A stretch of 32,370 nucleotides of DNA, taken from positions 1-32,370 of the forward strand of contig JADFIY010000009.1 in NCBI GenBank assembly GCA_022566415.1, read 5' to 3'. Under the pieces are notes generated by a model that did no database searches, was not told where the DNA came from, and saw nothing but the letters and a program-made list of their open reading frames with translations. Position numbers and translations under genes: made by a program. The number at the start of each line of letters is the position of its first letter. Position 1 is the stretch's first letter. Source of the stretch: Acidobacteriota bacterium (GTDB taxonomy: Bacteria > Actinomycetota > Acidimicrobiia > Spongiisociales > UBA5794). Positions 8,195 to 14,154 of this stretch are shown in pieces.

Positions 8195-8543
8195 CCCGTC
8201 GCGTGCCCAGGGTCGAAGACCCCGTATGCGCCGGGGTGAGCCCACAGGATGACCGGGCGGGCGTGCGACTCAGTTCCGCTTTTCCGCTGCTCAGCTTGTC
8301 GGCTACCCTTGTCGATACAACAGAAACCAAACCGACCGGAGAACCTTCCAGCGCCTGCCCTCGCCGAGGCGAGGTGACGAGGGAGAGGGAGAATCGATCA
8401 GTCGGCGGGTGCCCTCTCGGCCGCTCACGGTCGTGACGGGGCGGGTAAAACCCGGGAGCGATCCCGGGGACAACACCACCCCGATGTGAGGCGGGTTTCA
8501 CCCCGCAGCGCCCTCCGGTCATGGCCCAAAGGAGGACGCGCAC

Positions 8544-10769: not shown

Positions 10770-10790
10770 GAGACTGCTGCTCTTCCGATC

Positions 10791-10842
10791 CGTCGTACGT
10801 GTCTACGTACTCATTGAGCGTGACCCTAAGCACGTACGATGG
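10791..10842. repeat. 52-bp palindromic repeat, copy R1
   Basis: CGTCGTACGTGTCTACGTACTCATTGAGCGTGACCCTAAGCACGTACGATGG; arms CGTCGTACGTG/CACGTACGA. Confidence 0.95.
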
Positions 10843-10847
10843 TCGGG

Positions 10848-11717
10848 TTAGGGGTCGACGAGGACCCCGACGACTTCGTCGACGTCGTAGAGGATGGTGG
10901 TGGTCAGGTCGAGGGTCCCGATCGGGATCCAGGCTCCACCGATCCGGTATTCACCGAACCAGGTGAACGTCGCGGTGACCGGGTACGCCTCCAGGGTGGG
11001 GTGACAGTTCTGCCCGGAGGGATGTGTTGTCCTGTAATCCGGTGGGCAGGTCTTGGTTCGATAGGTGTGGGTGACGCTCCCGTTGGGGAACGGCAACGCA
11101 ACGGCAGGGTCTTCTGTCGTGGTGGCGCCGTCTCCCCAATCCACCGTGAGCGAGGCGACGGCGGCACGCACTTCGAAGAGACGGCCGTCGGGCAACAGTT
11201 CGCTGTGGGTGATCGTCGCCGGGTCGGACGTTGCGAGGTAGGTGAGGAGACCGGTGATCCCGTGGTTGGGCGGTTGGAACGATGGGGCAGGGACCGCCAG
11301 GGGGAAAGAGCGGAAGACCCGCCACGCCCGATCAGGGTCCGGGTCGGTGATGGCCGGGTCACACTCCGGAGTGAACAGGATGATGCCGTAGACGGTGTTC
11401 TCGTTTGCAGGATCCCAAGCGTCGAGACCCCCCGGGATACGGGACCAGTAGTAACACTCCCCCGTGCTGTACAGGTACCGGATCGGCGGCCGCGTCCGAG
11501 GCGGTTGCTCGTCCGGTTCCTCGGAAGGAGGATCGTCGCCGGGGATGGTGCCGGAGATGTCGCAGACCAACCTGTCAAGCTCTGTGTCGAGTATGCACTC
11601 TTCCCCTTCTGCCAGGCCCACCAGCAGCCAGCTGACCGCAGCGAGGAACAGAGCTATGTGTCGAATGGGTGCGGTCCGTTGCATATCCATCCTGTCCCGA
11701 CAAATGAGATCAGCCAC
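10848..11717 (-). CDS. Secreted protein with PKD-like domain
   Basis: N-terminal hydrophobic signal (IRHIALFLAAVSWLLVGLAEG); VDWGDGATTTEDPAVALPFPNGSVTHTY resembles the PKD WDFGDG...HTY pattern; start codon uncertain. Confidence 0.6.
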   Translation of the reverse strand: MADLICRDRMDMQRTAPIRHIALFLAAVSWLLVGLAEGEECILDTELDRLVCDISGTIPGDDPPSEEPDEQPPRTRPPIRYLYSTGECYYWSRIPGGLDAWDPANENTVYGIILFTPECDPAITDPDPDRAWRVFRSFPLAVPAPSFQPPNHGITGLLTYLATSDPATITHSELLPDGRLFEVRAAVASLTVDWGDGATTTEDPAVALPFPNGSVTHTYRTKTCPPDYRTTHPSGQNCHPTLEAYPVTATFTWFGEYRIGGAWIPIGTLDLTTTILYDVDEVVGVLVDP

Positions 11718-12142
11718 CGGCCCCCGCGGAGCTCAAGCACTTCGACCGTCGGATCGCTTGTCACCTGCCGATCAGTGCGGTCAACCACCGTCTCTGCTGC
11801 GATGCACTCTGCCCCGTCGTGAATCACCCTGATGACGTCAACATCGACCTTCGGTGGTCCATCGAACTCGACCACGTCGAACAGCTCCATGCTTCGTTCT
11901 AGATATCCGTTGTCGACGTGAACGGCTCGGAACGCTTCCCGATCCCCCCGGTACAGCGCATCGAGGCGTCGTTCCTCGAGGTCCTGGTAGATCGCCTCGA
12001 TCTCGGTGATCCGGTCCACGGTGGTGGTCGTCGCCAGCGTCGTCGTCGACGTGGTCGGTACCGAGGTTGGCGTCGTCGCCGGGGTCGACGAAGAGCACCC
12101 CACGACCACCAACGACGCCGCGACAAAACGCACCCACCGCAT
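11654..12142 (-). CDS. Putative lipoprotein (small secreted protein)
   Basis: MRWVRFVAASLVVVGCSSSTPATTPTSVPTTSTTT: lipobox VVGC followed by a Thr/Ser linker; 3' end overlaps the start of the 10848..11717 ORF. Confidence 0.65.
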   Translation of the reverse strand: MRWVRFVAASLVVVGCSSSTPATTPTSVPTTSTTTLATTTTVDRITEIEAIYQDLEERRLDALYRGDREAFRAVHVDNGYLERSMELFDVVEFDGPPKVDVDVIRVIHDGAECIAAETVVDRTDRQVTSDPTVEVLELRGGRWLISFVGTGWICNGPHPFDT

Positions 12143-12221
12143 GCCTCCACCCTACGGAACCAACCCACCGCTTCAAGAGTCCCGCCAAACCTGCTTTTCC
12201 CGACCTCCGCACCGTCCCTTC

Positions 12222-12273
12222 CGTCGTACGTGTCTAGGTACTCACTGAGGGTGACTCCAAGCACGTACGACTA
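12222..12273. repeat. 52-bp palindromic repeat, copy R2
   Basis: CGTCGTACGTGTCTAGGTACTCACTGAGGGTGACTCCAAGCACGTACGACTA; its end includes the stop codon of the 12271..13194 minus gene. Confidence 0.95.
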
Positions 12274-13194
12274 GGCCATCGAGGTCTGTTGTCCTGCGTT
12301 GAGGACGAGCTGGAGCACGGCGGCCGGGTCCTGCGTCAGGGCTCGATGGGTGAACCGCATGACCCGGTACCCATGCGCAGCCGCAAGGTTGTCCCGCTGG
12401 CGGTCGCGCTCGAAGTCGGCGCGCTTGGTGTGGAATGCACGTCCGTCGGATTCCAGGATCAAATTCCAATCGGGGATAACGGCGTCGACCCGGTGCGGCA
12501 AGACCGGCCACCAGGCGAGCCGAGCTTGACGATTCACATTCGGTACCCGTGGGTCGTCGATGGCACGTAGGAGCATCCGTTCGAGCTCGCTTTCCGTCGG
12601 CACGTAGTCGTCGGTGAGACCGGCGATCGTCTCTCGGAACGCCTTGGTGCCCTTGAGCCGCGATCCCGAGATCCGTTCGAGCACTACATGTAGGTCCCCG
12701 ACGCTCACCGTGTTCCGCACCAGGCAGTCGTCGACGGCTCCTTCGAGACCGAGACGTGGGAGGCGATTGGAGAGGTCGAAGAGAGTCTCAGCCACCGAGG
12801 CGGTCGGGATCCCGTCGACCGTGACCCTCTGAATGGCAGTGAAATCGGAACGTCGGCGAACGACTGCGACCGAGCTCGCCGCGCTCCCCGAGTACGGGAC
12901 GGTTATCTCCGGCCTGCCGAGCGGACAACCTGGGATGTTGTGTAGGGCGCCGGCAGACGACCCGGTCACGATTGCCCGGTTCTTGCTGAGCACCGATGCC
13001 ATGATCTGCCGTCGCCAGGTCGCCGGCGCCGATGCGAGTGCGTAGACACCTCGGTCCAACGACAGCCAGTCGCCAGAGGAGAGACGGTAGAAGGTCTGTC
13101 GCTTGGTCCCACCGGAGCCCACGACCTGTCGATGGTTGAAGACGCCGTGCTGAGCTCTCGCGAGGAGAGAGATAGCGCGATCGAGGTCGGACAT
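12271..13194 (-). CDS. AbiEi-antitoxin-like N-terminal domain plus DUF559/endonuclease-like C-terminal domain
   Basis: MSDLDRAISLLARAQHGVFNHRQVVGSGGTKRQTFYRLSSGDWLSLDRGVYALA...; C-terminal VDAVIPDWNLILESDGRAFHTKRADFERDRQRDNLAAAHGYRVMRFTHRAL is DUF559-like. The start is set at 13194 instead of the track's 13536, which runs through repeat R3. Confidence 0.75.
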   Translation of the reverse strand: MSDLDRAISLLARAQHGVFNHRQVVGSGGTKRQTFYRLSSGDWLSLDRGVYALASAPATWRRQIMASVLSKNRAIVTGSSAGALHNIPGCPLGRPEITVPYSGSAASSVAVVRRRSDFTAIQRVTVDGIPTASVAETLFDLSNRLPRLGLEGAVDDCLVRNTVSVGDLHVVLERISGSRLKGTKAFRETIAGLTDDYVPTESELERMLLRAIDDPRVPNVNRQARLAWWPVLPHRVDAVIPDWNLILESDGRAFHTKRADFERDRQRDNLAAAHGYRVMRFTHRALTQDPAAVLQLVLNAGQQTSMA

Positions 13195-13250
13195 GCGTAT
13201 CACCGTGCCACGCTGGGAGGGCGAGGAGAAGGGTGTCGACCGGAAGACCA

Positions 13251-13302
13251 CGTCGTACGTGTCTGTGGTCGCGTTCAGTGAGTCTCTAAGCACGTACGAC
13301 GG
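13251..13302. repeat. 52-bp palindromic repeat, copy R3
   Basis: CGTCGTACGTGTCTGTGGTCGCGTTCAGTGAGTCTCTAAGCACGTACGACGG. Confidence 0.95.
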
Positions 13303-13309
13303 CCAAAGG

Positions 13310-14095
13310 TCACAGGTTTGGGTTGACCTCGTTGGCGGCGAACTCGGCGGCGGGGTCGAGGGCGGATCCGAAATAGTCGTTGGAGTGGACCCAGATCGCC
13401 AGAGATCCCGACTGACACACCGGGTCTCCGCGCAAGCAGACCTGGATGGTTCGGCCGGCCAACTCGCCGTCGATAGAGACGCGGCCGACCAGGCCCCCCT
13501 GGTCAGGGTTGAAGTCGCCCGCCTTTTCCGTCGCATCGTCCGGGACGAACACGGGGTTGGCCAGCAAGATCATGGCGTCGATGGTTGCCTCACCGAGGTT
13601 GGCGAGGTCGGCGACGCTGATCACTTGCGCACCCTGGGAATACCCGGCCACCACGATGCGAGCCGCCGCACACTGCGATGCCAACACATCGACGGCGGCT
13701 CGGAGCTCCCCGGCGCCGGCGGCGACGCTCTCCTCGTATTTGGAGCTGTCGCCAAATCGACCTCGTGCCGCCGGATAGTCCAGCGGATATACCGCCACTC
13801 CGATGTCGCGACCCGGCCCGGGACGCAGGAAGGTCAGGAAGATGGAGTAGGCATCTGAGAGCTGGGGCCCGATGCCGGGGTCCTGGTCCGTCCCGCGGGC
13901 GCCAACGAAGAAGACGTTCGGGCAGCTCTCGGTCTCGATCCAGACCCCGAGATCGGTGACGCTTCCCGGTTCCGCGCTCTGTGGGAGGACCAATACGACA
14001 GCGACAACGATGGCGGCGGCGACAACCACGGCACCAGCGATCGCAATCCAAAACGAAGTTCGTTTATCCCCGGTGGCCACACCCGATTCAACCAC
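13310..14095 (-). CDS. Cutinase-family serine esterase, membrane-anchored or secreted
   Basis: N-terminal TM segment; CPNVFFVGARGTDQDPGIGPQ; nucleophile elbow IVVAGYSQGAQV; ...HSNDYFG C-terminus. Confidence 0.8.
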   Translation of the reverse strand: MVESGVATGDKRTSFWIAIAGAVVVAAAIVVAVVLVLPQSAEPGSVTDLGVWIETESCPNVFFVGARGTDQDPGIGPQLSDAYSIFLTFLRPGPGRDIGVAVYPLDYPAARGRFGDSSKYEESVAAGAGELRAAVDVLASQCAAARIVVAGYSQGAQVISVADLANLGEATIDAMILLANPVFVPDDATEKAGDFNPDQGGLVGRVSIDGELAGRTIQVCLRGDPVCQSGSLAIWVHSNDYFGSALDPAAEFAANEVNPNL

Positions 14096-14154
14096 CGGAC
14101 CGGGACTGTGATCGACGTGGGGAGCCGACGGCCCGACGAAGTACCCTCCTGCGC

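Follow-up and report, generated by a model that had tools for sequence, protein, structure and literature searches.

Three imperfect palindromes, R1, R2 and R3, are present in the stretch of 32,370 nucleotides that we analysed (the window). They are probably copies of a REP-like repeat, the cognate protein of which would be an AbiEi-Vsr (DUF559) nuclease that binds the palindrome and is likely to disperse it. The association of nuclease and palindrome is practically certain: each lineage of the enzyme within Acidimicrobiia, and part of those from other Actinomycetota, bears its own distinct palindrome on both sides of its gene. This suggests a repeat-plus-enzyme system that is new, akin to REP elements and yet built on an unrelated enzyme. 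The system is probably widespread; of 347 Actinomycetota genomes sampled, 184 encode the nuclease family, and shared repeats flank such nucleases in several other classes as well. REP elements are common, and a dedicated enzyme is known only for those of the GTAG type, CGTC REPs being reported to have none (PMC3733652). If the reading is correct, a second enzyme family, unrelated to the first, is tightly paired with palindromes, and REP-like repeats would have more than one origin; a large unannotated protein family of actinobacteria acquires a function; and a single protein with a 51-bp DNA suffices for a direct test of how the repeats originate.

Three palindromes between acpS and alr

The repeats share arms, CGTCGTACGTGTCT...AAGCACGTACGA, set in one orientation, and they lie where the initial annotation of this DNA had placed them. 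The conserved unit is 51 bp long, not 52 bp as first proposed: base 52 is unconserved, and the length of 51 bp is constant across all good copies. The consensus of the element reads CGTCGTACGTG(TCT/CTT)GGAGTCACnCTCAnTGAGTnnCTA(AG/GA)CACGTACGACG. Its interior is asymmetric, and that of R3 is inverted relative to those of R1 and R2 despite the agreement of the arms; the strands given below for the repeats are those of the interior. An asymmetry of the arms, initially ascribed to every copy, does not extend to the whole family, in which CTT/AAG and TCT/AGA combinations occur. Strong hairpins are predicted for these sequences, and chance matches to them amounted to zero in whole-genome and reversed-sequence controls.

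R1 (10791..10841, minus strand) is an ordinary dispersed copy. It sits between the convergent 3′ ends of acpS, the stop codon of which is 21 bp away, and of a gene for a secreted or lipoprotein-like protein of unassigned family and uncertain start (10848..11717, minus strand). A second lipoprotein-like protein, again without assigned family, is encoded at 11654..12142 on the same strand. R2 (12222..12272, minus strand) abuts the stop codon (12271-12273) of the nuclease gene (12271..13194, minus strand), while R3 (13251..13301, plus strand) is located 56 bp upstream of its start codon and 8 bp from the stop of the gene for a cutinase-like secreted protein (13310..14095, minus strand; PF01083, 2e-23). 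Proximity to minus-strand stop codons had been noticed at the outset, and is confirmed with distances of 6, 0 and 8 bp for R1, R2 and R3. R2 and R3 are the 3′ and 5′ cognate flanks of the AbiEi-DUF559 nuclease gene, in exactly the layout that most of these genes have across the class. The first suggestion, that the repeats travel with accessory genes, was partly right; it missed the cause, namely that two of the three belong to the nuclease.

Some features of the neighbourhood deserve mention. In most of the relatives examined, a gene of about 470 codons that corresponds to nnr (NAD(P)HX dehydratase) in position and size directly precedes alr. The acpS-alr interval of the window (10770-14154) is devoid of this nnr-like gene, and an accessory block stands there instead. 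A simple empty site at acpS-alr was sought in relatives and none was found. Carriage by a plasmid was rejected, there being no full-length plasmid match. Against Rfam, the window gives a single match, a glmS ribozyme (8339-8493, plus strand; RF00234, 82 bits) that immediately precedes glmS.

Dispersed copies and gene 3′ ends

The window comes from an Acidimicrobiia-like MAG of 2.57 Mb, here G000. A search with the exact arms gave a fourth copy in this genome, with no match in controls, and a covariance model trained on 16 copies identified 15 places in G000 (hence at least 15 copies) and eight in a congener, G001 (MAG B11T1B8, record JACZST, 60% complete). That no other copy exists is true, as had been remarked, of the window only. 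In a scan of 84,980 species genomes with a strict IUPAC pattern, matches outside G000 were restricted to G001 and to the MAG CSMAG_650 (G018, record JAUVPA); the exact arm sequence is therefore a genus-level trait. The covariance model reaches two further genera, those of G018 and G010, with about 48 copies in one of them. The repeats found there keep the length of 51 bp, and their arms differ (for instance TCGAGTGTG or TCGAGCGTG, with changes on both sides); a reversed-sequence control of this search gave 0 matches against 72 real ones. Copies in G010 often follow one another at 20-21 bp (a period of 71-72 bp) and are sometimes identical. Arrays of two to four palindromes with near-identical neighbours are seen at its loci L090, L094 and L109. 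Other palindromes are dispersed elsewhere: a 48-bp family, TTCTCRGCAAT...ATTGCYGAGAA, in genus g22, and a family of 31 copies with a 34-bp core in G027.

Two side observations belong here. The copies G000:C237 and G000:C113 (L046 and L049) combine the usual arms with a divergent interior (CCTACGGTGGCGGTA / CATACCGCCACGGTC) and possibly form a second subtype. The record JACZST is labelled ‘Acidobacteria bacterium’, yet it groups in the genus of the Acidimicrobiia-like G000.

Tabulated against the surrounding genes, 24 of 51 placeable sites fall between convergent genes; in the background, formed by other intergenic gaps of at least 60 bp at the same loci, 13 of 155 do so (odds ratio 9.7, p 8e-9). 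Genes were called by a simple codon-usage caller. Divergent gaps are avoided, though some copies do lie between divergent genes, and the median distance from a copy to the adjacent gene 3′ end is 14 bp. The family thus has the general properties of REPs, extragenic palindromes dispersed genome-wide with a strong bias for gene 3′ ends, as the initial annotation had anticipated in calling the repeats REP-like. Its idea that they cap transcription units holds as a preference of the whole family, and fails as a strict rule.

This bias, together with the strong hairpins, might evoke punctuation at the RNA level, with the repeats maintained by selection as bidirectional terminators or as stabilizers of mRNA 3′ ends. 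Such an explanation is very improbable. No U-tract follows R1, R2 or R3, compensatory changes are missing from the alignment of the genus, some copies separate divergent genes, and the pairing with a nuclease is left unexplained. In particular, an intrinsic terminator was rejected because the U-tract required after a G+C-rich hairpin is missing, and the ‘terminator-like’ part of the first description finds no support; a structured RNA was rejected for want both of compensatory covariation in the genus and of any Rfam match to the repeats. Conservation without compensatory covariation is that of a DNA sequence, as expected for a copied element or for the site of a protein.

The nuclease and its palindrome

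The gene between R2 and R3 encodes a protein of 307 amino acids with an AbiEi-type N-terminal half (PADLOC AbiEi, 1e-19) and a DUF559 C-terminus (PF04480, 3.7e-8). Its AlphaFold model has a mean pLDDT of 94.7. Foldseek matches the model to an AbiEi antitoxin (6y8q, E 2.4e-5) and the C-terminal part to the homing endonuclease I-Bth0305I (3r3p), to the DUF559 protein 3hrl and to Vsr (1cw0, 1vsr). Residues of catalytic type, E205, D237, E248, D250 and H255, are kept in 47-50 of 50 relatives; among these relatives no substitution is seen at E248, H255 or D264, and few at E205, D237 and D250. A predicted Vsr-like fold with conserved acidic and histidine residues is what is expected of the Vsr/EDxHD group, and sequence-specific cutting of DNA, also proper to that group, is a putative activity. 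The protein has the AbiEi fold in common with type IV toxin-antitoxin systems of the AbiE family. It differs from them by its fusion to a nuclease and by the absence from the window of an adjacent gene for the AbiEii (DUF1814) toxin, its neighbours being the lipoprotein-like and cutinase genes. Likewise, its C-terminal fold and its pattern of acidic and histidine residues recall DUF559 proteins and EDxHD/Vsr-like homing endonucleases such as I-Bth0305I. Unlike the latter, it resides neither in an intron nor in an intein, and its gene is bracketed by its own repeats.

This arrangement is general. From 246 Acidimicrobiia genomes we retained 89 AbiEi-DUF559 genes with usable flanks, and scored the best repeat common to 350 bp of 5′ flank and to a 3′ flank running from −45 to +160. 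A score of at least 20 was reached by 70 of the 89, by 1.3% of the pairs made by exchanging flanks among genomes and by none of 82 neighbouring genes. In a larger control, 5 of 295 other genes scored as high (odds ratio 214, Fisher p about 2e-52), and these five are partly unclean, one being a truncated nuclease call and two lying in the nuclease contig of G027. The 5′ copy ends at a median of 45.5 bp (interquartile range 40-56) before the start codon, and the 3′ copy starts at a median of −1 bp from the stop (spread −26 to +6); R3 at 56 bp and R2 at 0 bp fit this class-wide layout. The palindromes measure 45-54 bp across lineages. When each of the 70 shared repeats was compared with shuffles of itself, 49 exceeded the 99th percentile in self-palindromic character. 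As regards orientation, 32 pairs match better as direct and 34 as inverted repeats, a distinction that palindromes make weak. The layout is missing from 19 of the 89 genes, including most of those sampled from genus g25, in which an AbiEi-DUF559 clade without flanking repeats (L185, L187, L188, L191, L196) is a possible domesticated form. Short canonical DUF559 genes (L119, L120) are devoid of such palindromes; DUF559 in general was rejected as the partner, the association being confined to the AbiEi-fused form of about 300 residues.

Palindrome and nuclease vary together. Over 62 genes, protein identity and repeat similarity are correlated (rho 0.30), a value reached in 0 of 999 permutations. 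All eight pairs of nucleases that are more than 70% identical and come from different genomes share repeats, while paralogues inside one genome mostly have unrelated ones. G010 has two nucleases, 49% identical, with different flanking palindromes, and 40 dispersed copies of this genome split 26/14 according to the nearest flank type. From this split, the correlation and the differences between paralogues it follows that the palindrome goes with the nuclease, not with the host genome. Dispersal of a cognate palindrome is also seen in genus g22 and in G027, where the 31 copies (L008, L014-L016, L302; CGTACGTG...CACGTACG, the centre being of TATA type) correspond to the repeats that flank the nuclease of contig C56. 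No DUF559 gene was found in G001, which is 60% complete and has eight copies.

One may ask whether the nuclease gene is but one of several passengers of MITE- or REP-like elements moved by another, undetected transposase. Lipoprotein genes do lie between R1 and R2, and in G001 (contig C50) a gene without nuclease homology is bracketed in the same manner. We consider this quite unlikely: the association is specific for the nuclease (70/89 against 5/295), it holds over dozens of unrelated palindromes, and it matches paralogue by paralogue.

Proposed binding and dispersal, and relation to known systems

A REP-like system served by the AbiEi-Vsr nuclease might work as follows. The AbiEi-like half would bind the two half-sites of the palindrome, as its fold and the behaviour of AbiEi antitoxins suggest. 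In the promoter of their own operon-like unit, which they repress, those antitoxins bind a pair of 23-bp inverted repeats separated by 3 bp (PMC7319586), and the sum of 23+3+23 = 49 bp is near the 45-54 bp of the present palindromes. By this analogy and from the predicted structure, the nuclease very probably binds its palindrome. The copy placed some 45-56 bp upstream of the start codon would then allow autorepression. Finally, the Vsr-like domain would nick or cut the palindrome, or its hairpin form, with the outcome that copies, and rarely units of gene plus repeat, are moved or duplicated into intergenic sites near 3′ ends.

This last step is the weakest, and we give an even chance to the view that the nuclease drives the dispersal. 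In its favour are the lineage-specific spread, the tandem amplification, the absence of Y1 transposases and the single gene-plus-element unit that G001 has and G000 lacks, which may also reflect a deletion by recombination. Against it, in the four genomes of genus g22 that were compared the nuclease occupies one and the same site, which makes it largely vertical in its inheritance; a polymorphic site was also sought in genera g22-g24, and the location was conserved wherever it could be compared. The 19 genes without the layout, and G001 with its eight copies but no DUF559 gene found in an incomplete assembly, also weigh against the proposed system. No target-site duplication came to light, nor any clean empty site for one element alone. 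The enzyme might instead be a self-regulator, its AbiEi domain acting on palindromic operators, and the dispersed copies being regulatory sites or road-blocks that no nuclease has moved. The promoter-like distance of the upstream copy and the repression exerted by AbiEi antitoxins through 23-bp inverted repeats (PMC7319586) would fit. We find this improbable, since a second copy is present at the stop codon, the dispersed copies are at gene 3′ ends and not at promoters, G010 has near-identical tandem arrays, and active-site residues are conserved in nearly all members.

A further possibility is that of integron-like cassettes, in which the repeat would be the recombination site and gene plus repeat the cassette. 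It is suggested by the succession R1-gene(s)-R2-gene-R3, and by an exact difference between congeners: where G001:C50 (L052 3397-4005) has element, gene (142 amino acids) and element, G000:C36 (L044 4415-4465) has one element between identical flanks. This is extremely unlikely to be the explanation. The ends of R1, R2 and R3 have no attC core (RYYYAAC/GTTRRRY), most copies stand alone or form tandems that enclose no gene, and the difference between G001 and G000 could be a deletion by homologous recombination between direct repeats. The notion of an integration mark is not borne out, despite this gene-plus-element unit present in one congener and absent from the other.

Turning back to the REP-like system, its closest parallel is that of the RAYT (TnpA_REP) ‘REPtrons’. 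There too the gene lies between imperfect palindromes, further copies of which are scattered, alone or grouped, over intergenic sites close to 3′ ends, and the pairing is specific to each family (PMC2817692, PMC3733652). By contrast, the repeats found here on both sides (70/89) surround a different enzyme, a Vsr-like nuclease with an AbiEi-like domain in place of an HUH/Y1 transposase, and the palindromes, of 45-54 bp, have no unpaired GTAG/CGTC tag. REPs driven by a RAYT were rejected in G000 for lack of a Y1 transposase; PF01797 is absent from this genome and from 14 of 15 relatives bearing the nuclease or the repeat. CGTC-tagged REPs, reported without a dedicated transposase, are also intergenic and biased to 3′ ends (PMC3733652). 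The R1-R3 family shares these two features and starts with CGTC. Those REPs are, however, 20-40 bp long, with stems of 8-9 bp and an unpaired CGTC, whereas in the 51-bp unit CGTC is paired with GACG inside the stem. A search of an open-access library of papers for DUF559, MTES_1575, AbiEi or Vsr with palindromes or REPs returned no earlier description. It is tempting, if still somewhat doubtful, to place these elements outside RAYT-REP, in a class of self-mobile or repeat-dispersing systems of its own where an AbiEi-Vsr nuclease would recognize and copy its cognate palindrome; the nuclease family is present in more than half of the sampled Acidimicrobiia and Actinomycetota genomes, and each nuclease would have a palindrome family of its own.
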